64,000 nt of DNA from contig NZ_JACBZP010000001.1 of the NCBI RefSeq assembly GCF_013409065.1, positions 3,110,518-3,174,517 on the forward strand. The letters run 5' to 3'. Each line of letters starts with the position of its first letter. Within the stretch, counting starts at the first letter, position 1. Positions 6,680 to 41,617 of the stretch are shown here, one piece after another. This DNA comes from Spelaeicoccus albus (GTDB taxonomy: Bacteria > Actinomycetota > Actinomycetes > Actinomycetales > Brevibacteriaceae). A program made the translations under genes and the position numbers. The notes under the pieces were generated by a model that had not been told where the DNA came from, searched no databases, and saw only the letters and a program-made list of their open reading frames with translations.

Positions 6680-6705
6680 CCCAATCCGATAACGTTCCCA
6701 TAACG

Positions 6706-6744
6706 AAAAATCAGAGCGAGCCCGTGTCATCGACACGGGCTCGC
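6706..6744 (-). terminator. Intrinsic terminator overlapping the priA 3' end
   Basis: A perfect 13-bp stem (6716-6728 paired with 6732-6744) with a three-base loop is followed, on the minus strand, by TCTGA and then T5 at 6706-6710. The hairpin is made of the last priA codons (encoding ARVDDTGSL) and the terminator continues through the priA stop. It should end the long pyrR-priA transcription unit. Only the minus orientation has a T-run. Confidence 0.8.
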
Positions 6745-8738
6745 ACTGGTTCTGCGGCCCGGCGGGCGGAGCGGGCCGCAAGTGCGGCGCGCAGCTGCCG
6801 CGGCACGTCGGTGCGGGAATAGCCGAAGAACACAAGCGTGCGGGAATCGTCCGTATCCGGAATGGGCGCGGGGCCGATGATGCTGACGCCGTCCCCGGCC
6901 ACTCCCGCTTCGTCCGCGACATCGTTCAACGCGGCGGCCGGCCCGGACAGGGCTGCCATTCGCACGGCCGGCGGCATGGACAGTTCCCGACGTTCGGCGA
7001 GCTCCCGTTCGGCGTATCCCACCGGATCCCAACGGACCAACGCGCCGACGGTACGTTCTTCGTCGGCACCGATGAACACGGTGCCGCCGTCGGGCGCGGG
7101 CCGTACCAGCGCAGCCGCGGCCAGCCATCGGCGCAACGCCTGTTCGCCGGCGCGGAGCCCGGGCAGCGAAATGAGCGAATTGCCGTCGAGCAGCAATGCC
7201 GCCGCATAGCCGCCGGGCACGACGGGTTCGGCGCCGACGGTCGCCACGACGATGGCGGCGCCCGGCGGGACCGTGCCAAGCACGTGATCGCCGGACGACC
7301 GCACCATCTTCACGCCGGGGAACGCTCGTCCCAGTTCCTCCCCGGTGCGGCCGGCGCCGATCACGGAGCGGCGCAGCTCCGTACCCCCGCAGTCCGGGCA
7401 CGCGAACGCGGCGACGGGTCTGCCGCACCATCGACAGCTCGGCGGCGATTCGGCGTCCCGCTGCTCCAGCGGGCCGCGGCAGCCGGCGCACCGGGCCGCC
7501 TTGCGGCAACTGCCGCAGGTGAGCAGCGGCGCGTAGCCGGCACGCGGTACCTGGACCAGGACGGGGCCGGCGGCGTTCGGGCTGCGGTCCATGCCCAGTG
7601 CTCGCCGAACGATGCGGAACGCCGAGGCCGGGAGCCTTCCTCCGTCACCGGGGCGAGAGTCGTCGGGCGCGACGATTCGTGGCGCGCGCGCTCGTACCGT
7701 GGCGCGGGCCGCTCGCAAGTCGACGAGGTAGCCGTTCTCGACAAGTCGTTGCACGTCGGTGCTGCGCGAATGGCCGGCGAACAGGATCGGCGCGGCCGAC
7801 GCGGCCGAGCGCATCAGCAGCACTTCCCGCGGGTGCGGATACGGCGCCCGCGGTTCGTCCAGCAGGTCGTCACCGTCCTCGAGGAGGGCCAGCAGCCCGA
7901 TATCGGACACCGGCGCGAACATGGCCGCCCGAGTGCCGATCACTATCCGGCGGGTGCCGCGCAGCACGCGCAGATAGGCACCGTAGCGCTCGGCATTTCC
8001 CTCGTCGGCGCTCAGCCGCACGAATTTGTCCGGACCGACCCGCCTCGTCAGCGCTTCGGCAAGCCTGTCGAGGTCGCGGTAGTCGGGAGCGACTATCAGC
8101 GCCGATCGTCCGGCTGCGGCAGCGGCCTTGGCTGCAACGGCCAGCAGATCGGCGGGCCCGGATTCGTCGTCCCCGGGGAGCAGCGCGGCGGCGGCGCGCG
8201 GTACCGGCGCGCCGGGCCGTGCGGGCCCGGAGGGGGCGCCGGCCGCAAGGCGCCCGATGAAGGCCCGGCCGCCCGCGTAGTCGGACCACAGGGAAAGATC
8301 GCGTTCGCCGGGCGGCTCCGGGGCGGCGGCACTACCCGGTTCGGCAAGTACCCGTTCTTCGGTGCGCGCGTGGCGGGGCGGCAGAGCCAGCCGGAGGACG
8401 TCGGAGCGCGTGCCGGCGTAGCGATCGGCAACCGCACCGAACAGCGTCAATTGTTCGCCCGTCACCAACGGGAAGGCAGCGATGGCTCTGCCGATCTCGG
8501 CGAGTTCGCCGTCGTGTCCGGTGGACTCCTTGCACGCGGTGACGAGGCCATCGGCCGTGCGGCCGGAAAACGGCACCCGCACCCGCATGCCCGGTTCGAT
8601 GTGCTGCCCTGCCGGCACTGCGTAGTCGAACGGACGGTCCAGATGCGGCACCGGGGAGTCAATGAGCACCTCGGCGACCCGCCCGGGCTCGCGGGCCGCT
8701 AGGGCATCCGCCGCTTCGTCCACTCGTTTTTCCGGCAC
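6711..8738 (-). CDS. priA: Primosomal protein PriA, probably helicase-inactive
   Basis: PriA recognises stalled forks and restarts replication. The product has the N-terminal DNA-binding domain (VAEVLIDSPVPHLDRPFDYA), a degenerate helicase core, and the eight-cysteine zinc region (CGSCRKAARCAGC ... CRWCGRP ... CPDCGG). No Walker A GxxGxGKT motif is visible where it should precede SALIVAPDYRDL, and the DEAH position reads EDGDDL. This fits the actinobacterial PriA type thought to lack ATPase activity. The open frame runs on into metK, but homology begins only at VPEKRVD, so the GTG at 8738 is chosen, 38 bases after the metK stop. Confidence 0.92.
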   Translation of the reverse strand: MPEKRVDEAADALAAREPGRVAEVLIDSPVPHLDRPFDYAVPAGQHIEPGMRVRVPFSGRTADGLVTACKESTGHDGELAEIGRAIAAFPLVTGEQLTLFGAVADRYAGTRSDVLRLALPPRHARTEERVLAEPGSAAAPEPPGERDLSLWSDYAGGRAFIGRLAAGAPSGPARPGAPVPRAAAALLPGDDESGPADLLAVAAKAAAAAGRSALIVAPDYRDLDRLAEALTRRVGPDKFVRLSADEGNAERYGAYLRVLRGTRRIVIGTRAAMFAPVSDIGLLALLEDGDDLLDEPRAPYPHPREVLLMRSAASAAPILFAGHSRSTDVQRLVENGYLVDLRAARATVRARAPRIVAPDDSRPGDGGRLPASAFRIVRRALGMDRSPNAAGPVLVQVPRAGYAPLLTCGSCRKAARCAGCRGPLEQRDAESPPSCRWCGRPVAAFACPDCGGTELRRSVIGAGRTGEELGRAFPGVKMVRSSGDHVLGTVPPGAAIVVATVGAEPVVPGGYAAALLLDGNSLISLPGLRAGEQALRRWLAAAALVRPAPDGGTVFIGADEERTVGALVRWDPVGYAERELAERRELSMPPAVRMAALSGPAAALNDVADEAGVAGDGVSIIGPAPIPDTDDSRTLVFFGYSRTDVPRQLRAALAARSARRAAEPVRARVDDTGSL

Positions 8739-21224: not shown

Positions 21225-22481
21225 ATGACCAAGCGTGAAACGCACCCGTACACCGGCACCGTCAAAAAGCTGTTATGGCGTTCCGCACTGGCTTTCGCCG
21301 GCACGCAGGCAGCCGTGATCGGCGGCCTTGTCGCCACGGACGCCGTGAAGAAATCCCAGCGCAAGAAGCGCACCGGGTTTCCGCGGCCCGGCACGTACAC
21401 CAGCAGCGTGTCGGACGCCGTGACGACCGTGTACACGTACGGTGCCGACCTTTACGACGCCATGATCGACGAGATCGACAAGGCCGAAAGGCACGTGTTC
21501 ATTCAAAGCTACATTTGGAAGGACGACGAGACCGGCAGACGATTCAAGGATGCACTGGGCCGTGCCGCCGAACGCGGCGTCGACGTCTTCGTCAGCTACG
21601 ACGGTTTCGCCAATCTCGTTGTCCGGCCCCGTTTTTACCGGTTCCATCCGAGCGTGCACGTGCTGCGCTCGCCGATTTTCCGCCCCGGCATCATCTTTGC
21701 CAACCCGCGCTCGACCGGGCTCGATCATCGAAAGATCCTCGTTGTCGACGACCGGGTCGGATTCGTCGGCGGATACAACATCGGAGCTCCGTACGCCACC
21801 GAATGGCGCGATACGCATTTACGGATCGAAGGCCGCTCGGTCTGGGAGCTGCGGCATGCTTTCATCAGCTTTTGGAACAACACGCGTACTAGCCGGCACC
21901 CGGAGCTGCCCGACCCGGGAGCCGGCTTTTGGGAGCCGCGGCTCCGGTCGGTCAGCAATGCGCCGGCAGGCATGGTCTTCCCCATCCGGGGCGTCTACCT
22001 GGCGGCCATCAACAGGGCGACCAGCCATATCTTCATCACCACGGCCTATTTCATCCCGGACGGGCAGATTCTCGATGCGCTGACGGCCGCGTCCCGGCGC
22101 GGCGTCGACGTGCGCGTGCTGGTGCCCGAGGAGTCGAACCACGTGCTCTCCGACTGGCTCTCCCGAGGGTTTTACTCCGAACTGTTGGACGCCGGCGTGA
22201 CGATCCTGCTGTACGAGAACGCCATGGTGCACGCCAAGACCGCCACCATCGACGGCAAATGGACGACGGTGGGCACCGCCAATATCGACAGATTGAGCCT
22301 GAGCGGCAATTACGAGATCAACATGGAGCTCTACGACGACAAGCTCGCAGCCGATATGGAGCGGATCTTCGAGGTGGACAGCGGAAACAGCCGCGTGCTC
22401 ACGCCCGAGGAATGGCAGCGCCGGAATGTCGTGGCGCGGTTCGCCGAACTCGTTCTCGTGCCGTTGCGGCCGTTGCTCTAA
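21225..22481 (+). CDS. Cardiolipin synthase-like phospholipase D family protein
   Basis: The 418-residue protein has one N-terminal hydrophobic helix (about 16-38) and two PLD domains, each with an HxK(x)4D motif: DHRKILVVDDRVGFVGGYN near 167-185 and VHAKTATIDGKWTTVGTAN near 335-353. This is the layout of cardiolipin synthases, which transfer a phosphatidyl group at the membrane. The gene is transcribed divergently from pyrR, and its stop overlaps the nusB stop on the other strand. In close relatives nusB and pyrR are usually neighbours, so this gene looks inserted. Confidence 0.9.
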   Translation: MTKRETHPYTGTVKKLLWRSALAFAGTQAAVIGGLVATDAVKKSQRKKRTGFPRPGTYTSSVSDAVTTVYTYGADLYDAMIDEIDKAERHVFIQSYIWKDDETGRRFKDALGRAAERGVDVFVSYDGFANLVVRPRFYRFHPSVHVLRSPIFRPGIIFANPRSTGLDHRKILVVDDRVGFVGGYNIGAPYATEWRDTHLRIEGRSVWELRHAFISFWNNTRTSRHPELPDPGAGFWEPRLRSVSNAPAGMVFPIRGVYLAAINRATSHIFITTAYFIPDGQILDALTAASRRGVDVRVLVPEESNHVLSDWLSRGFYSELLDAGVTILLYENAMVHAKTATIDGKWTTVGTANIDRLSLSGNYEINMELYDDKLAADMERIFEVDSGNSRVLTPEEWQRRNVVARFAELVLVPLRPLL

Positions 22482-22888
22482 TACCCGAGTGACGGCTTCA
22501 TGTCGAGGATCCGGCCCAGCAGGCCGCTGACGAAGCCGGGCGAATCGTCCGTCGAAAGCTTGCGGACCAGGTCGACGGCCTCATCGACGGCCACGGGGCC
22601 GTCCACGTCGTCGTTGAACAAGATCTCCCAAGCGCCGATCCGCAACGCCGCCCTGTCGACTGCCGGCATGCGGGTCAACGGCCACCCTTGCGAATAGGTC
22701 TCGAGCAATTCGTCGATCTCATCGGTGTGCGATGCGACGCCGCGCACCAGTTCCGCCGAATACTCGCGCATGGGATAGTCGGCGTCCGAGCTGCGGGTTT
22801 CCAGCATGCTGAGCGGCGCAATACCGCGTTGTTCCGCCTCGTAGAGAACGTCGAGCGCCCGTTTCCGGGATTTACTGCGTGCTCCCAC
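22478..22888 (-). CDS. nusB: Transcription antitermination factor NusB
   Basis: NusB binds boxA RNA with S10 (NusE) to prevent early termination in rRNA operons. The 136-residue all-helical protein begins MGARSKSRKRALDVLYEAEQ and has LPAVDRAALRIGAWEIL-type helices. It starts one base into the efp stop. Its stop codon overlaps the end of the convergent PLD gene. Confidence 0.96.
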   Translation of the reverse strand: MGARSKSRKRALDVLYEAEQRGIAPLSMLETRSSDADYPMREYSAELVRGVASHTDEIDELLETYSQGWPLTRMPAVDRAALRIGAWEILFNDDVDGPVAVDEAVDLVRKLSTDDSPGFVSGLLGRILDMKPSLGY

Positions 22889-23448
22889 TAGTTGACGCGG
22901 CCCAAGTATTCGCCCGAGCGGGTGTCGACCTTGATCTTGGTTCCTTGCTCCAAGAACAACGGCACCTGGATCTCGTACCCCGTCTCGAGCGTTGCGGACT
23001 TCGATCCGCCCGACGAACGGTCGCCTTGCAGGCCCGGCTCGGTGTAGGTGATCTCAAGCGCCACCGACGGCGGCATTTCCACGTACAGCGGGACACCGTC
23101 GTGCATGGCGACCTGGATGCTCTGGCTTTCGAGAAGATAGTGGGCCGCATCGCCGACGGTCTTCTCGGGCACGTTGATCTGCTCGTAGTCGGAGTTGTCC
23201 ATGAACACGAAATCGGTGCCGTCGTGGTAGAGGTACTGCATGTCGCGACGGTCCACATTTGCCGTTTCGACCTTGGTGCCGGCGTTGAACGTCTTGTCGA
23301 CGGTCTTGCCGGACAGCACGTTCTTCAGCTTGGTGCGCACGAACGCCGGTCCCTTGCCCGGTTTGACGTGCTGGAACTCCACGACGGACCACAATTGTCC
23401 TTCGAGGTTGAGCACCAAGCCGTTCTTCAGATCGTTGGTCGAAGCCAC
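22888..23448 (-). CDS. efp: Translation elongation factor P
   Basis: EF-P relieves ribosome stalling at proline stretches. The 186-residue protein has the three OB/KOW-like domains. The domain I loop reads [13 protein letters not shown], with the lysine at the usual tip position, and the C-terminal signature ends LGRVN. The context aroB-efp-nusB-pyrR is conserved, except that about 2.1 kb has been added between aroB and efp here. Confidence 0.97.
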
Positions 23449-23628
23449 TCGCGTTTCCCCTATAGGTTGTCAAGAATTACTCGAGAACAGAATACCGAAT
23501 CGGACCGCCGGGCCCGGAGTTCCCCGGGAATCCTCACCACACGGCCGCAATCAAGGGTACCCGCCCCGGCAAAAATTCCGCGAATCGAGCGCTCCGGCCC
23601 CGCCCGTCCCCGCTCCCCGTCCTCAACC

Positions 23629-23698
23629 GCAAAACGCGCCGCCGCGTCGGGAACGCGCCGTCAGAACGGCGCGTTCCCGACGCGGCGGCGCGTTTTGC
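23629..23698. repeat. 70-bp perfect palindrome, copy 1 of a family
   Basis: Two 33-bp arms (23629-23661 and 23666-23698) are perfect inverse complements around a four-base loop, CAGA. The ends read GCAAAACGC and GCGTTTTGC. A partial second right end (CGGCGGCGCGTTTTGC) follows at 23702-23717, next to the stop of the hydrolase gene. The right arm matches copy 3 (39285-39354) at nearly all positions. It could act as a transcription-blocking hairpin, but no T-run follows, and the family form suggests a mobile palindromic repeat. Confidence 0.9.
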
Positions 23699-23727
23699 AC
23701 ACGGCGGCGCGTTTTGCAGCCCGTGGA

Positions 23728-24405
23728 TTACTTTGCCGCCTCCGCGAGCAGCCCGGCCAGTTCGGCGGGTTTGGTGTACATCGGCCAGTGGCCGGAGTCG
23801 ATGTCGAAGTACTCGACATGGCGGGCGGCCGCCAGTTCGGGCACATCGCCGCCCTCGATCCACTCCTTGGCGTCCGCCGGGCCGTATTCGGGGCAAATCA
23901 AAACGGTCGGCACGTCGAACCGCGCGTCATCCGTATAGGCAACCGCCGCGGTGCTCACCGCTTCGGGCACTGGAATGGCTGCCGCGGCGATCCGGCGCTT
24001 GGCGTCCTCGCTCAAATCAGCGGAGTCCGGGCCGTCGAAGGGTTCCCAACCGGGAAACGGCATCACGCCGCCCTCGGCGGGGAAGAAATCGGCGTACGCC
24101 TCCCCGGCAGTGGTGGGAAACCCGCCGATCAACACCGTCTTGGCCACGCGACCGGCCCGTGCGTCGGCGGCCAGCCACGCGAGCGTGCTCGCAGCCGAGT
24201 GTCCGACTACCACGGGTTTGCCGGACGCCGCGTCGACTGCCTCGACGACTGCCGCCACCTGGTCGTCGAGCGTCGCCGCATCGCCGTCCCCTTGGCCGGG
24301 CAGCGTGATCGGCACCGGGCGGTGTCCCAGATCGGCGAGCTTCGCTGCAACGTCGTCCCACGCCGAGTCGTCGAGCCAGAGTCCGGCGATGAGCAGAATG
24401 TCCAT
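23728..24405 (-). CDS. Alpha/beta hydrolase
   Basis: The 225-residue alpha/beta-hydrolase-fold protein has the nucleophile elbow VVGHSAAS (serine) and the C-terminal catalytic histidine in DSGHWPMYTKP. An acidic residue in the PTVLICPEYGPADAKEW region may complete the triad. It resembles small esterase or salicylate-esterase-like hydrolases; the substrate is unknown. The ATG at 24405 (MDILLIAGLW) has GGAG upstream and is preferred over the longer open frame. It is divergent from a WYL regulator, which may control it, and the pair is bracketed by 70-bp palindromes. Confidence 0.85.
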   Translation of the reverse strand: MDILLIAGLWLDDSAWDDVAAKLADLGHRPVPITLPGQGDGDAATLDDQVAAVVEAVDAASGKPVVVGHSAASTLAWLAADARAGRVAKTVLIGGFPTTAGEAYADFFPAEGGVMPFPGWEPFDGPDSADLSEDAKRRIAAAAIPVPEAVSTAAVAYTDDARFDVPTVLICPEYGPADAKEWIEGGDVPELAAARHVEYFDIDSGHWPMYTKPAELAGLLAEAAK

Positions 24406-24538
24406 GATGCGTCTCCTTTCATTGCTTCCGCCTACTGCCTCGGACATCGGTCCGGCGGACGCGTTGTGCTCAACACGTTAGGAGGTGTTCCGGACGATCG
24501 GCTTCCGGATAGCCTCGGCTCATGCTTATTCTTTTGAC

Positions 24539-25513
24539 ATGGCTACCGAGTCGAGCCCGACCGCGCGGGCGCTGCGTGCGCTCGAGGTATTGCAATTCTC
24601 CCCCGGCGTACAGGCCGGCGAGCTCGCCGAGCGCCTGGGCGTCACGGAGCGGGCGGCGCGCCGCTATGTCGAAATTCTCCGCGAGGCGGGCATACCCGTC
24701 GAGTCGTCCCGCGGACCGTACGGCGGCTACCGGCTCGGGCGGGGCACCAGGTTGCCTCCCGTCGTCTTCACCGAGGCCGAAGCGCTGGGCCTGGTGATGG
24801 CGGCTCTGGACGGCGGCACGTTCCCGGCGGGCGCCGAAGACGTCACCGGCGCGGCCTTGGGCAAGGTCATTCGCGCGCTTCCGGACGCCCTGGGCCGTAA
24901 AGCGGCCGAACTGCGGGAAAACGCGTCGACCGCGCCGGCGCCGAGGTCCCGGCCCCATCCGGCGGTCGCCGGCGAGCTCGCGGCAGCAGTTGCCGACCGG
25001 TCGGTCGTCGACATCACCTACAGCAACCGCCCGGGCCGCGAATGGGACGATCGCGTGGATCCGTGGGCGGTCGTTGTGCGGCACGGATACTGGTACCTGC
25101 TGTGTTTTTCGCACGGCCGCGAAGCGATCCGGACGTATCGCGTCGACCGCGTTCGTTCGGTGCGACGGTCGGCGGACACGTTCACGCCGCCGGCCGATCT
25201 TGATCCGGTGGCGGTGCTGGAGGAAAATCTCGGCATCGGCTGGGACTTCGAAACCCGAGTGCGATTCGATGCGCCGGCCGGGGACGTGTCGGAGTGGATC
25301 CATCCCGCCATGGGCAAGCTCACGGCGTCCGGCACTGGATGCGTGCTGAACGGCAGCACCGGCAATCCGGAGATGTACGTGCAGGAATGGCTGGCGTGTG
25401 TGCCTTACCAATTCCACATCGAGGGCGGACCCGAGCTCTGCGAGGCGGCCCGGACATTTGCCCGCCGCATCGCCAAAGCCGTCAACCACCGCAAAGCGCC
25501 CCGCCGCGTATAA
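24539..25513 (+). CDS. WYL-domain transcriptional regulator (HTH + WYL)
   Basis: The 324-residue product has an N-terminal HTH (LAERLGVTERAARRYVEILR), the GPYGGYRLG wing, and a central WYL domain (about 140-235, with VVRHGYWYLLCFSHGREAIR then TYRVDRV), followed by the WCX part. Such proteins bind DNA and small ligands or nucleic acids. The ATG at 24539 (MATESSPTA) is chosen. A TATTCT at 24527-24532, six bases before the ATG, would give a leaderless mRNA. The last codons and the TAA lie inside palindrome copy 2. Confidence 0.88.
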   Translation: MATESSPTARALRALEVLQFSPGVQAGELAERLGVTERAARRYVEILREAGIPVESSRGPYGGYRLGRGTRLPPVVFTEAEALGLVMAALDGGTFPAGAEDVTGAALGKVIRALPDALGRKAAELRENASTAPAPRSRPHPAVAGELAAAVADRSVVDITYSNRPGREWDDRVDPWAVVVRHGYWYLLCFSHGREAIRTYRVDRVRSVRRSADTFTPPADLDPVAVLEENLGIGWDFETRVRFDAPAGDVSEWIHPAMGKLTASGTGCVLNGSTGNPEMYVQEWLACVPYQFHIEGGPELCEAARTFARRIAKAVNHRKAPRRV

Positions 25514-25560
25514 AGCGCGAAGTCATGACGGGGCGGGCTATACGCCGCGGGGCGTTTTGC
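25491..25560. repeat. 70-bp palindrome, copy 2, overlapping the WYL gene stop
   Basis: This imperfect palindrome is centred on GTCATGAC (25522-25529). Its arms start GCAAAGCGCC and end GGCGTTTTGC and carry matching GCGTATA/TATACGC segments. It lies between the convergent WYL and aroKB genes and supplies the last seven codons and the stop of the WYL gene. Its length is exactly that of copies 1 and 3. It could serve as a bidirectional terminator. Confidence 0.85.
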
Positions 25561-25569
25561 GAAGGGGAA

Positions 25570-27351
25570 TTAGCCGAGACCGCCGACGGTCGTCAAATTA
25601 CCCCGCGGTCCCTCCGCCGCGATTTCGGCGAACGCGGCCTGCATGATTGCCGGATCGGGGCCGGCCAGCCGGGTGGTGCGGCCGGTACGGCCGTCCAAGA
25701 CCACGAACCGCAACAGCGACCCGCGTGCCTTCTTGTCCCGGGCCATCGCCTCGAGCAGTTTGGGCCACCGGTCGCCTCGATAGGTCACCGGCAGTTTGAG
25801 CTTCGACAGGATCGCCCGGTGCCTGTCGACCACGTCATCGGGCAGCCCCGAGGCCATCCGGGCCAGTTCGGCCACGTACACCATGCCGATGCTGACGGCG
25901 GCGCCGTGCGGCCACTGATAACGCTCGGCGTATTCAATGGCGTGCCCCAGCGTGTGACCGTAATTGAGGATCTCCCGCTCCCCCGATTCACGCAGGTCGT
26001 TGCCGACCACGCGGGCCTTGACAGCCACGGCGCGTTGAATGAGCTCACGCAGTATGGGCCCGTCCGGGTCGATGATCTGCTCGAGCGGATTGTCCTCGAC
26101 CAGTTCGAGGATGCGCTCGTCCTCGATGAATCCGATCTTCACGATCTCCGCCATCCCCGACAACAGCTGCCGTTCGGGAAGCGTGCGCAGGGACTCCAGG
26201 TCGATGAGCACGCCGGCGGGCGGGTGGAACACTCCGACCAGGTTCTTGCCCTCGGACGTGTTGATGCCGGTCTTGCCGCCGACCGCCGCGTCCACCATGG
26301 CCAGCAGGGTGGTGGGAATGTGCACGACCCTGACGCCGCGCAGCCACGTGGCCGCCACGAACCCGGCAAGATCGGTCACCGTGCCGCCACCCACCGAGAC
26401 GATGGCGTCCGACCGGGTGAAGTCGGATTGGCCGAGAATCGTCCAGCAAAACCCTGCCACCGGTTGCAGTTTGGCCTCTTCGCCGTCCGGAATCTCGGCG
26501 GCTATCGCGTTGTAACCGCGGCCGGCGAGCTCTTCGCGGACCGTCTCTCCGGTCGCCTGCAATGCGCGCGGATAGACAACGAGCACGCGTTCGCACGCCT
26601 CGCCCAGGAGCCCGGGCAGCTCGGTCAACAGCCCGGTGCCGATGATTGCCTGATAGTCGTCCGGCCTGGCGGGCGTCGATCCGACGTCGATACGGGTGGT
26701 TGACGTCATTGATGACCTTTCGATGGAGTTGGAGTCGTCACCGGCGAGTCGTTCCTCGTACGCGGCAAGGGCGGCGGTCACCCGATCGACGACGGTGGCG
26801 GGAGACACGCTGCTGCTGGGCACGATGAGGTCGGCGACCTCCCGGTAGACCGGTTCGCGTTCGGCGGCGAGCCGCGTCCATTGTTCCAGCGGGGTTTCGG
26901 CGGAGCCATCGGCCAGCAGCGGTCGGCTCGAGTTCTTGATCCGTGCGGCAACCGTTGCCGCGTCGATGGTGATGTACACCACCGTGACGCCGGACGACGT
27001 CAGCTGGGCCCGCGTCTCGGCGTCCAGCACGGCGCCGCCTCCGAGCGACACGATCCCGGGGGTTTCGGCAACGGTTCGCACGGCCGAATCGACGGCCCGG
27101 CGTTCGATCCGGCGGAACGCGGGTTCGCCGTCGCGGCGGAAGATCTCGCGAATCGGGCCGGCATCTTCGACGATCATGGCGTCGGTGTCGTACATGGGTA
27201 CGTCGAAAGTTTCGGACAGCAGCCGGGCCAGCGTCGTCTTGCCGGCGGCCGGAGGTCCGACAAGGACGACGTGCTGCGGCAGCTTGGGCCGGGGTTTCTG
27301 CCGCGGCGGGTGCGGCACGGGCCGCGTTGGCGGTCCGAACGGGATAGACAT
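25570..27351 (-). CDS. aroKB: Shikimate kinase / 3-dehydroquinate synthase in one reading frame
   Basis: One uninterrupted 593-codon frame holds AroK (residues about 1-190; P-loop VGPPAAGKTT, IVSLGGGAVLD and RPLLADG) and AroB (from about 215; VSVGGGTVTDLAGFVAATW, DAAVGGKTGIN and GHTLGHAIEY). These enzymes catalyse two steps of the shikimate pathway. No stop separates them, so a fused protein is expected. An internal ATG at 26709 (MTSTTRIDVG) with GAAAGG eight bases upstream could also give free AroB of 379 residues. In most relatives the two genes only overlap or touch. It starts one base after the aroC stop. Confidence 0.9.
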   Translation of the reverse strand: MSIPFGPPTRPVPHPPRQKPRPKLPQHVVLVGPPAAGKTTLARLLSETFDVPMYDTDAMIVEDAGPIREIFRRDGEPAFRRIERRAVDSAVRTVAETPGIVSLGGGAVLDAETRAQLTSSGVTVVYITIDAATVAARIKNSSRPLLADGSAETPLEQWTRLAAEREPVYREVADLIVPSSSVSPATVVDRVTAALAAYEERLAGDDSNSIERSSMTSTTRIDVGSTPARPDDYQAIIGTGLLTELPGLLGEACERVLVVYPRALQATGETVREELAGRGYNAIAAEIPDGEEAKLQPVAGFCWTILGQSDFTRSDAIVSVGGGTVTDLAGFVAATWLRGVRVVHIPTTLLAMVDAAVGGKTGINTSEGKNLVGVFHPPAGVLIDLESLRTLPERQLLSGMAEIVKIGFIEDERILELVEDNPLEQIIDPDGPILRELIQRAVAVKARVVGNDLRESGEREILNYGHTLGHAIEYAERYQWPHGAAVSIGMVYVAELARMASGLPDDVVDRHRAILSKLKLPVTYRGDRWPKLLEAMARDKKARGSLLRFVVLDGRTGRTTRLAGPDPAIMQAAFAEIAAEGPRGNLTTVGGLG

Positions 27352-39229: not shown

Positions 39230-39284
39230 GGTGTCACTCTATCGACCACCGCCGTCAGCCGCCTCCGCACCGAGCCCGCCCCTC

Positions 39285-39354
39285 GTAAAACGCGGCGGCG
39301 CGTATAGCACGCCCCGTCATGACGGGGCGTTCCCGGCGCGGCGGCGCGTTTTGC
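39285..39354. repeat. 70-bp palindrome, copy 3
   Basis: The palindrome is centred on GTCATGAC (39316-39323) inside a perfect inner palindrome (CGCCCCGTCATGACGGGGCG). The outer arms begin GTAAAACGCG and end GCGCGTTTTGC. It has the same length as copies 1 and 2 and shares its centre with copy 2 and its right arm with copy 1. It lies between rarA and an MFS gene, ten bases after the MFS stop on the minus strand. Confidence 0.88.
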
Positions 39355-39363
39355 GGAAGGGCG

Positions 39364-40788
39364 CTACTGCGCATCGGTCGGCGGCGCGGGGTTCCGGATG
39401 CCGATTCCGGACACCACTCCCCCGGCGATCAAGAGTGCCGCGCAAAATATCAGCCCGTTTTTGAAACCGGCGGGGTCCACCGTGTCGCCCAGCACGATGC
39501 CGAGCACCGCCACGGCCAGCAGGCCTGCCACGCGTGAGATTGCGTTGTTCACGGCAGATCCGGTTCCCGCAAGCTCCCGCTGCACCGAGCCGAGAATTGC
39601 CGACGTCAACGGCGCCACGGTGATGGTCAGCCCGATGCCGAAGATCAGGACCCCGGGAAGGATCTGTGTCCAATAGGTCACGCGTGCGTCCACTATCAGC
39701 ATGTACAGATATCCCATCCCCGCCACAATCGGACCGGCCGTCATGAAAATTCGCGGCCCAATGCGTGCCGCGAGCGTGCCGATCCGCGTCGAGAACGCCA
39801 GCATGATCAGCGTGGTCGGCAGCATGGCCAGCCCGGCTGCGGTTGCCGGATATCCACCGACTTGCTGTACGAAGACGGTAATGAGGAACCCGCCGGCGGA
39901 CAGCGCCCCGTACATCAACGTGGTAGTGACATTGCCGACGGCAAAATTGCGCACGGCGAACAGGGACGGCGGGACCATGGCGCCCGGCGCCCGGCGTTCG
40001 TAGTCGATGAAGAAGGCGAAACAGCCGACGCCGATCACGAGCGGAATCCAGATCACCGGGCTGCCCCAGCCGAAGTTCGCGTATTCGATCAGAGCGAACA
40101 CCGGTCCGCCAAGTCCGAGCACGCACAGCAAGGTCCCCCTGACGTCGATGCGTGAATGGCCGGCGGTCGCGGCCCGCCCGGCGTCCAGGGGCCGCAGCCG
40201 CGGTAAGTACCACAGGGTCACGGCGATCGGGATCAGATTGATGGCGAAGACGAGGCGCCAGCTGACCAGATCGACGAACACGCCACCGAGGATCGGGCCG
40301 GCGATCATCGCGGTGCCGGTCCACGCCGTCCAGCGTCCGATTGCCCGGCCCTGGGCCGCTCCCGAGAACGCCGAGATGATCAGCGCCAGCGAGCTCGGTA
40401 CCAGCAGCGCTCCGGCAACTCCCTGCAGGCCGCGGCAAATGACCAAGAACACCGGGTCGAACGCGAGCGCGCACAGTGCCGAGGCCGCGCCGAATCCGAT
40501 GAGCCCGATCCGCAGGATTCGCACGCGTCCGAATTTGTCCGAGAACGATCCGGCGACGAGCATCAGGGCGCCTAGAGAGATCAGGTACGCATCGACGACC
40601 CATTGCTGCGTCGACAGCCCGCCGCCGAGGTCGCGGCGGATCGCCGGCAATGCCACGTTCACGACCGATCCGTCGAGGAATGCCACGAACGAGGACAAAA
40701 TCGTCACGATCATGACGCATCGTTGCAGTCGCTTCAGGTCCGCTTCGACGAATTCTCCGGATGCCGGGTCGGCCGCGCCGTCGCTCAT
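39364..40788 (-). CDS. MFS transporter, DHA2 family
   Basis: This 474-residue protein of about 14 membrane helices has FLDGSVVNVALPAIRRDLGG in helix one, VAGSFSDKFGRVRILRIGL (motif A) and TAMIAGPILGGVFVD (motif C), as in EmrB/QacA exporters. A hydrophilic N-terminus of about 25 residues precedes helix one. It is distinct from the neighbouring DHA2 gene and is not an obvious recent duplicate. The substrate is unknown. A 70-bp palindrome lies just downstream. Confidence 0.87.
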   Translation of the reverse strand: MSDGAADPASGEFVEADLKRLQRCVMIVTILSSFVAFLDGSVVNVALPAIRRDLGGGLSTQQWVVDAYLISLGALMLVAGSFSDKFGRVRILRIGLIGFGAASALCALAFDPVFLVICRGLQGVAGALLVPSSLALIISAFSGAAQGRAIGRWTAWTGTAMIAGPILGGVFVDLVSWRLVFAINLIPIAVTLWYLPRLRPLDAGRAATAGHSRIDVRGTLLCVLGLGGPVFALIEYANFGWGSPVIWIPLVIGVGCFAFFIDYERRAPGAMVPPSLFAVRNFAVGNVTTTLMYGALSAGGFLITVFVQQVGGYPATAAGLAMLPTTLIMLAFSTRIGTLAARIGPRIFMTAGPIVAGMGYLYMLIVDARVTYWTQILPGVLIFGIGLTITVAPLTSAILGSVQRELAGTGSAVNNAISRVAGLLAVAVLGIVLGDTVDPAGFKNGLIFCAALLIAGGVVSGIGIRNPAPPTDAQ

Positions 40789-41558: not shown

Positions 41559-41617
41559 CCGAGTGGTGGCGAATGGCTGCGAAATCGCGGATTTTGCGGC
41601 CATTCGCCACCACTCGG
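41559..41617. repeat. 19-bp perfect inverted repeat with partial upstream copy
   Basis: The arms CCGAGTGGTGGCGAATGGC (41559-41577) and its exact complement (41599-41617) flank a 21-base centre that itself nearly pairs (GCGAAATC/GATTTTGC). A degenerate copy of the left arm (GCCGAGTGGCGGCCAGTGGC) is at 41528-41547. The element sits directly downstream of the MHS transporter stop. No T-run follows. It is unrelated in sequence to the 70-bp palindromes. Confidence 0.88.

Follow-up and report, generated by a model that had tools for sequence, protein, structure and literature searches.

The joint between efp and aroB in the Spelaeicoccus albus genome raises the question of whether two genes that lie between two copies of a palindrome form a cassette carried by these palindromes, or whether the palindromes have a life of their own. 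The preliminary description of this DNA had proposed the former, i.e., a hydrolase/WYL cassette that entered, or is carried, between palindromic elements. The window (the whole stretch of DNA analysed, 64,000 nucleotides) corresponds to positions 3110518-3174517 of a single-contig genome of 4.03 Mb. The features discussed here, in window coordinates, are:

22888-23448, minus strand: efp (elongation factor P), the left boundary
23627-23700, no strand: copy 1 of the 74-bp palindrome, downstream of the hydrolase gene at 27 nt from its stop codon
23701-23717, no strand: extra outer unit adjoining copy 1, in which the block GGCGCGTTTTGC is repeated at a spacing of 19 bp
23728-24405, minus strand: alpha/beta hydrolase (Abhydrolase_6)
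24539-25513, plus strand: HTH-WYL transcriptional regulator, divergent from the hydrolase
25489-25562, no strand: copy 2 of the 74-bp palindrome, between the convergent WYL and aroB genes
25570-27318, minus strand: aroK-aroB fusion, the right boundary, with the aroK (shikimate kinase) and aroB (3-dehydroquinate synthase) domains in a single open frame
about 25570-26670, minus strand: aroB part of the aroK-aroB frame, the 3' end of the gene being at 25570
39283-39356, no strand: third copy of the palindrome within the window, downstream of the minus-strand gene 39364-40788 at 7 nt from its 3' end

The layout itself was confirmed: the hydrolase (minus strand) and WYL (plus strand) genes diverge from a common intergenic space between efp and aroB, and a palindrome lies at each end of the pair (23627-23700 and 25489-25562). 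The arms of copy 1 are perfect, 33 nt each (23629-23661 and 23666-23698), with a 4-nt spacer. Copy 2, with its palindromic core at 25491-25560, is imperfect (26 of the 35 symmetric positions of the 74-bp frame match), and the two copies are 73% alike over 82 nt. It was also correct that copy 2 supplies the last seven codons of the WYL gene (318-324) and its TAA stop, at 25490-25513. As WYL homologues align only up to residue 300-321 and then have dissimilar tails, copy 2 has replaced or extended nothing but the tail of this protein. A 17-base skeleton of the repeat family finds copies 1, 2, and the third one (39291-39348) in the window, each on both strands, and 100 shuffles of the window gave no skeleton match.

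The efp-aroB junction was compared across relatives. Within the family, aroB was found in 36 genomes, of which 14 yielded no locus and 22 were read. In 21 of these 22 loci efp lies close to aroB, and none of the 22 has a hydrolase or WYL match near aroB. Such matches near aroB were likewise not found in seven loci from other families or in the 10 tested among 36 further loci. In one relative (G003, L198:716-1988) aroQ (DHquinase_II) and a gene without a Pfam match are placed between aroB and efp, so the genes accommodated at this junction differ between lineages. Thus, of the cassette proposal, the part that stands is the addition of the pair relative to the family.

WYL matches at E <= 1e-30 occur in seven of the 59 other family genomes, none above 40% identity. 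At E <= 1e-60 (the best five candidates per genome being scored) they are present in no family genome and in 33 other genomes of the order. Among 19 WYL loci of the order that were read, two (L217 and L218, 57-61% identity) have a hydrolase diverging from the WYL gene. These divergent pairs (L217:733-2430 and L218:743-2442) come from two genomes of another family, G199 and G332, in which no match to the repeat skeleton was found. The G+C content of the pair (68.3% vs. 66.1% for the window) says little. Judging from these comparisons, the pair is a regulator with its probable target, gained here or lost by the relatives.

A BLASTN search with copies 1 and 2 as queries indicated 56 places in the genome, and a covariance model built from those added a 57th full copy as well as a derivative of 47 bp. 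This gave 57 full 74-bp copies and one derivative, dispersed through the 4.03-Mb genome; the 57th copy (889485) was left out of the alignment and of the context counts. The derivative (G000:C1:1131342-1131388, L197:3001-3047) retains the outer units only. Each of the 56 aligned copies is exactly 74 bp long, and 18 of the 74 columns are invariant (A5, CGC 9-11, G20, CGC 28-30, GT 34-35, AC 40-41, GCG 45-47, and GCG 64-66), while in the most variable column the majority base reaches 39%. Pairwise identity among these copies averages 76%, with a minimum of 54%. The 57th copy, found by the model and standing outside the alignment, keeps all 18 invariant columns, although the invariance may be somewhat overstated, since copies with intact anchors are more readily detected by BLAST and by the model. 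The majority ends of the repeat are CCGCAAAA and TTTTGCGG, and CGTC/GACG is present at the centre only. Similar blocks recur within the repeat at 19-bp spacing, and five copies, copy 1 included, have extra units at one end (judged by eye). Four copies share one convergent gap (G000:C1:2843951-2844648, L139:3001-3698), some of them within a 215-bp tandem duplication, and a different hairpin with a T-tract precedes the next gene of this cluster. The cluster was counted fully and also without its extra copies (three dropped in the placement and spacing tests, two in block covariation).

The repeat was then sought in other genomes, and no full-length copy was detected in the 59 other family, 395 other order, and 393 other class genomes tested (57 of the family genomes belong to one genus, and 39 of the class genomes are also in the order set). 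In the family, where stricter filters were used, the covariance model indicated just two short palindromes with partial likeness. One, in G021 (L153, about 1500-1560), shares the repeat centre GTCATGAC, and the other, 36 bp long, in G009 (L154, 1501-1536), shares the end block GCAGAACGCCCCG. Both fall short of a 74-bp copy and were rejected as members of the family; they are possibly distant kin or reflect a common terminator make-up. The skeleton gave five single matches in the 395 order genomes, without a palindrome in the printed letters, vs. seven for the reversed control. With at most one mismatch it gave no match in the 393 class genomes and 51 per strand in its own genome. No repeat match was found in phage and plasmid collections by distant BLASTN. 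In viral contigs, 15 stretches matched the skeleton and none was accepted as a copy, since 11-17 of their 35 symmetric positions match vs. 22-34 in the genuine copies. In the Rfam scan of 22000-27000, copy 1 alone drew matches, six in total, to microRNA models and one viral element; none reached its gathering score (best E 6e-7), and all were dismissed as responses to the shape of a perfect stem. The family appears, from the relatives tested, to be lineage-restricted.

The palindromes at the ends of the hydrolase/WYL pair are therefore ordinary members of a 57-copy family and no marks of a gene cassette. Counting the four-fold cluster once, gaps between copies of up to 1.9 kb number three (1.3 expected, P 0.14), those of up to 2.3 kb four (1.6 expected, P 0.08), and those of up to 5 kb six (3.4 expected, P 0.12); close spacing is not clearly above chance, with a slight excess possible. 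Other close copies enclose unrelated genes: a glutamine synthetase with an RDD protein, a luciferase-like monooxygenase, and a protein without a Pfam match. Nor do the copies form an array with one attC-type palindrome per cassette, as in integrons, being scattered over 4.03 Mb. It should be stressed that the 3' ends of a divergent pair both point outward, and copies that lie mostly behind genes bracket such a pair automatically. Although the pair is a local gain and is bracketed, it seems highly improbable, given the dispersal of the copies, their near-chance spacing, and the occurrence of the divergent pair in genomes lacking the repeat, that the palindromes carry or bound it as a cassette. 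This part of the preliminary description had to be abandoned. More generally, a palindrome-bracketed gene pair need not be a cassette, as the same picture arises for every divergent pair that bears elements at its 3' ends.

The placement of the copies was analysed with gene calls from a custom codon-usage gene caller (not a published program). Among the 56 copies, 32 lie in tail-tail (convergent), 19 in tandem, and four in head-head (divergent) contexts, and one lies within a gene. The convergent share (32/56) compares with 20 of 197 copy-free junctions in the same loci (Fisher about 1e-12). Without the three extra cluster copies it is 29/53 (Fisher 3e-11), and when the comparison is with the entire window (eight convergent among 57 junctions, those with copies counted in), the Fisher value is 1e-6. 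A copy is faced by 83 gene 3' ends (median distance 21 nt) and by 27 gene 5' ends (median distance 74 nt). For 45 of the 55 intergenic copies, from which the one inside a gene is excluded, a stop codon lies within 60 nt. In five copies the gene stops 25 nt inside the element, as in the WYL case. The intragenic copy (L131:3001-3074) falls within the linker of a permease-ATPase fusion gene (BPD_transp_1 and ABC_tran), whose reading frame continues through it.

Such a distribution might also be expected of a selfish miniature mobile element, mobilized by a transposase supplied elsewhere and found behind genes merely because insertions are tolerated there. The dispersal of the copies, the lack of full-length ones in the relatives tested, the copy read through in the ABC permease-ATPase gene, the five genes ending at the same place inside the element, and the deletion and extra-unit derivatives all argue for this explanation. 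Against it, no Y1 transposase was found in the genome in a search for one family (PF01797, zero matches, with five of 14 genomes matching in the control), no transposase is present among the 25 commonest of the 224 Pfam families in 104 neighbouring proteins, no target duplication was seen by eye in 15-nt flanks, and the internal columns of the repeat are as invariant as its ends. We consider mobility of this kind a serious yet rather unlikely account of the family.

Folding predictions gave a full symmetric hairpin for 52 of the 56 copies. The mean fold energy of the copies is -56.4 kcal/mol, compared with -27.6 for letter shuffles and -47.3 when halves were swapped between copies, and the half-elements hardly fold alone (-10.7 vs. 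-9.0 kcal/mol for shuffles). Arms of the same copy match at 28.6 of 35 positions vs. 26.6 when re-dealt (maximum of 2000 re-deals, 27.6). Covariation between a block and its opposite was visible in four of five blocks (z 4.4-9.2); for the fifth (columns 26-27) the coupling of left and right did not reach z 2.5, and coupling inside one arm was seen for several blocks as well (z 2.6-4.5). Double-changed cells numbered 136 vs. 77 expected from shuffles, a value reached in none of 500 shuffles. Out of five covariation measures, three beat all 500 shuffles and two did not clearly do so (57/500 and 23/500), the shuffles ignoring the relatedness of the copies. As 84.8% of arm cells are paired and 15.2% are not, with mismatches in many copies, the symmetry of the arms is kept within copies, though not strictly.

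The strict terminator scan called no terminator at copy 1 or copy 2. A GC-rich hairpin shortly behind the stop codon is there, and its T-tract consists of four T (columns 67-70), below the required five of eight. Tandem contexts show no clearly better conservation of the T-tract side (137/152 vs. 128/152). Our own hairpin finder was applied to 54 gene ends with a copy and 54 without. Among the latter, eight had a stem score of at least 9, three of these with at least three T; among the former, the stem test was passed by 24 and the T test by none. As the arms of the finder stop at 20 pairs, it takes the tail from within the longer stem. Other convergent genes can thus also be followed by ordinary hairpins with short T-tracts.

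Taken together, these palindromes are probably a dispersed, REP-like 74-bp family lying mostly behind stop codons and giving hairpins at mRNA 3' ends, with the hydrolase/WYL pair gained independently. A copy transcribed from either side would fold into one long hairpin. Its very stable stem, with AAAA preceding and TTTT following the GC-rich part, would form soon behind the stop codon, and the hairpin may end or protect the 3' end of the upstream mRNA and hinder read-through into the convergent gene. Since the short T-tract fails the strict terminator rule, a mixed role is favoured, in which the hairpin would both form and protect 3' ends and to some extent hinder convergent read-through. A role as bidirectional hairpins at mRNA 3' ends is likely. 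The family may have spread in this lineage as a non-autonomous repeat, surviving behind genes where it is harmless or helpful. The hydrolase and WYL genes would then be a regulator-target pair acquired on its own, each outward 3' end of which happens to bear an element.

Several of the observations above speak against the 3'-end hairpin explanation: the strict scan called no terminator at either copy, the arms of many copies have mismatches, two covariation measures and the fifth block give no clear signal, some blocks are coupled inside one arm, and the T-tract side is not distinctly favoured in tandem contexts. Moreover, a pure RNA hairpin would not require the 18 invariant columns. Base pairing by itself would leave these columns free to vary, so the anchors probably also reflect recognition of the sequence, or a copying process with a preference for intact ones. 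In both arms the anchors lie at distances of about 3, 8.5, 17.5, and 27.5 bp from the repeat centre. It is quite unlikely, in our opinion, that the element serves a putative chromosome-organising or transcription-blocking protein as a dimeric or tetrameric site, although the 18 strict anchors in a repeat whose most variable column has a 39% majority, their full retention in the copy outside the alignment, and the units spaced 19 bp apart, with the extra ones seen by eye in five copies, would fit such a site. Against such a site, enrichment of the copies near dnaA is only mild (21 of 54 copies within 0.5 Mb, 13.4 expected, P 0.016), the opposite side is not depleted (13 copies), and the bias towards gene 3' ends would need a separate reason. 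A terminus effect as the cause of the uneven spread was rejected, dnaA being located at 945 kb. The protein reading may also be phrased as a binding array of a putative lineage-specific protein that insulates transcription or organises the chromosome, loading behind genes and between convergent genes, with units spaced by about 19 bp, anchors by about 9-10 bp in each arm, symmetry reflecting a dimeric complex, and anchors selected copy by copy; this version, too, we regard as unlikely.

The 3'-end hairpin explanation may be set beside known repeats and terminators. Repetitive extragenic palindromes (REPs) of the GTAG/CGTC type are, according to the parts of the source that describe them, likewise palindromic, dispersed, located behind stop codons and between convergent genes, and sometimes within genes (PMC3733652), the convergent ones mostly less than 20 bp from 3' ends (PMC3733652). 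As in the 74-bp repeat, the CGTC kind lacks a dedicated transposase (PMC3733652); for the GTAG kind a Y1 (RAYT) enzyme is expected, and no such gene was found here, as stated above. The placement at gene ends and the convergent bias of REPs are thus shared. The size of their units, given as 20-40 bp (PMC3733652), and an end tag in a self-folding unit are not: the repeat is 74 bp long, forms a single long symmetric hairpin whose halves barely fold alone, and has no GTAG/CGTC tag at an end, its CGTC being central. The phyla named in that account for tagged REP families do not include Actinobacteria (PMC3733652). By their sequence features, the 74-bp repeats are REP-like, of unusual length, and with invariant anchors.

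RepRanger predicts, by structure alone, thousands of REP-like palindromes in each of three Actinomycetota genomes (PMC12306157). They are hairpins without a T-rich tail, as here; by their description, however, the predictions count short hairpins (10-71 nt long in E. coli) and define no sequence family (PMC12306157). The Ype and Efa repeats resemble the 74-bp repeat in being bigger than REPs, in preferring CDS 3' ends, and in being thought to act in RNA (PMC1590033). They come from Yersinia and Enterococcus, and their description, in the part available, mentions no anchor pattern or 19-bp units (PMC1590033). Bidirectional intrinsic and uptake-sequence terminators share the hairpin with A and T tracts between convergent genes and the repeated sequence at gene ends (PMC1852404). 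In contrast to them, the 74-bp repeat has a T-tract of just four, a far longer stem, and 57 copies vs. about 1,000 or more (PMC1852404), the latter being the number of a short uptake-sequence core and the former that of the long element alone. In the described portions of these sources, REPs and other stem-loops at similar positions are linked to termination, mRNA stability, and translation (PMC3733652, PMC1590033, PMC12306157). Judged by titles and the beginnings of abstracts, the literature matches listed contain no described actinobacterial or Brevibacteriaceae palindrome family, which is no proof of absence from print; the family seems not to have been described before, and its pattern seems unusually strict.

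The reason for which REP-type palindromes persist behind bacterial genes is still debated. A family of 57 copies, in which strictly invariant anchors stand among freely varying columns, is a clean system for weighing selection (for termination, mRNA 3' ends, or protein binding) against the mobility of the element itself.

It is also worth mentioning that the window contains two other palindromes, i.e., a long, near-perfect one of unrelated sequence at 41559-41617, between two minus-strand genes, and a shorter one at 6704-6756.
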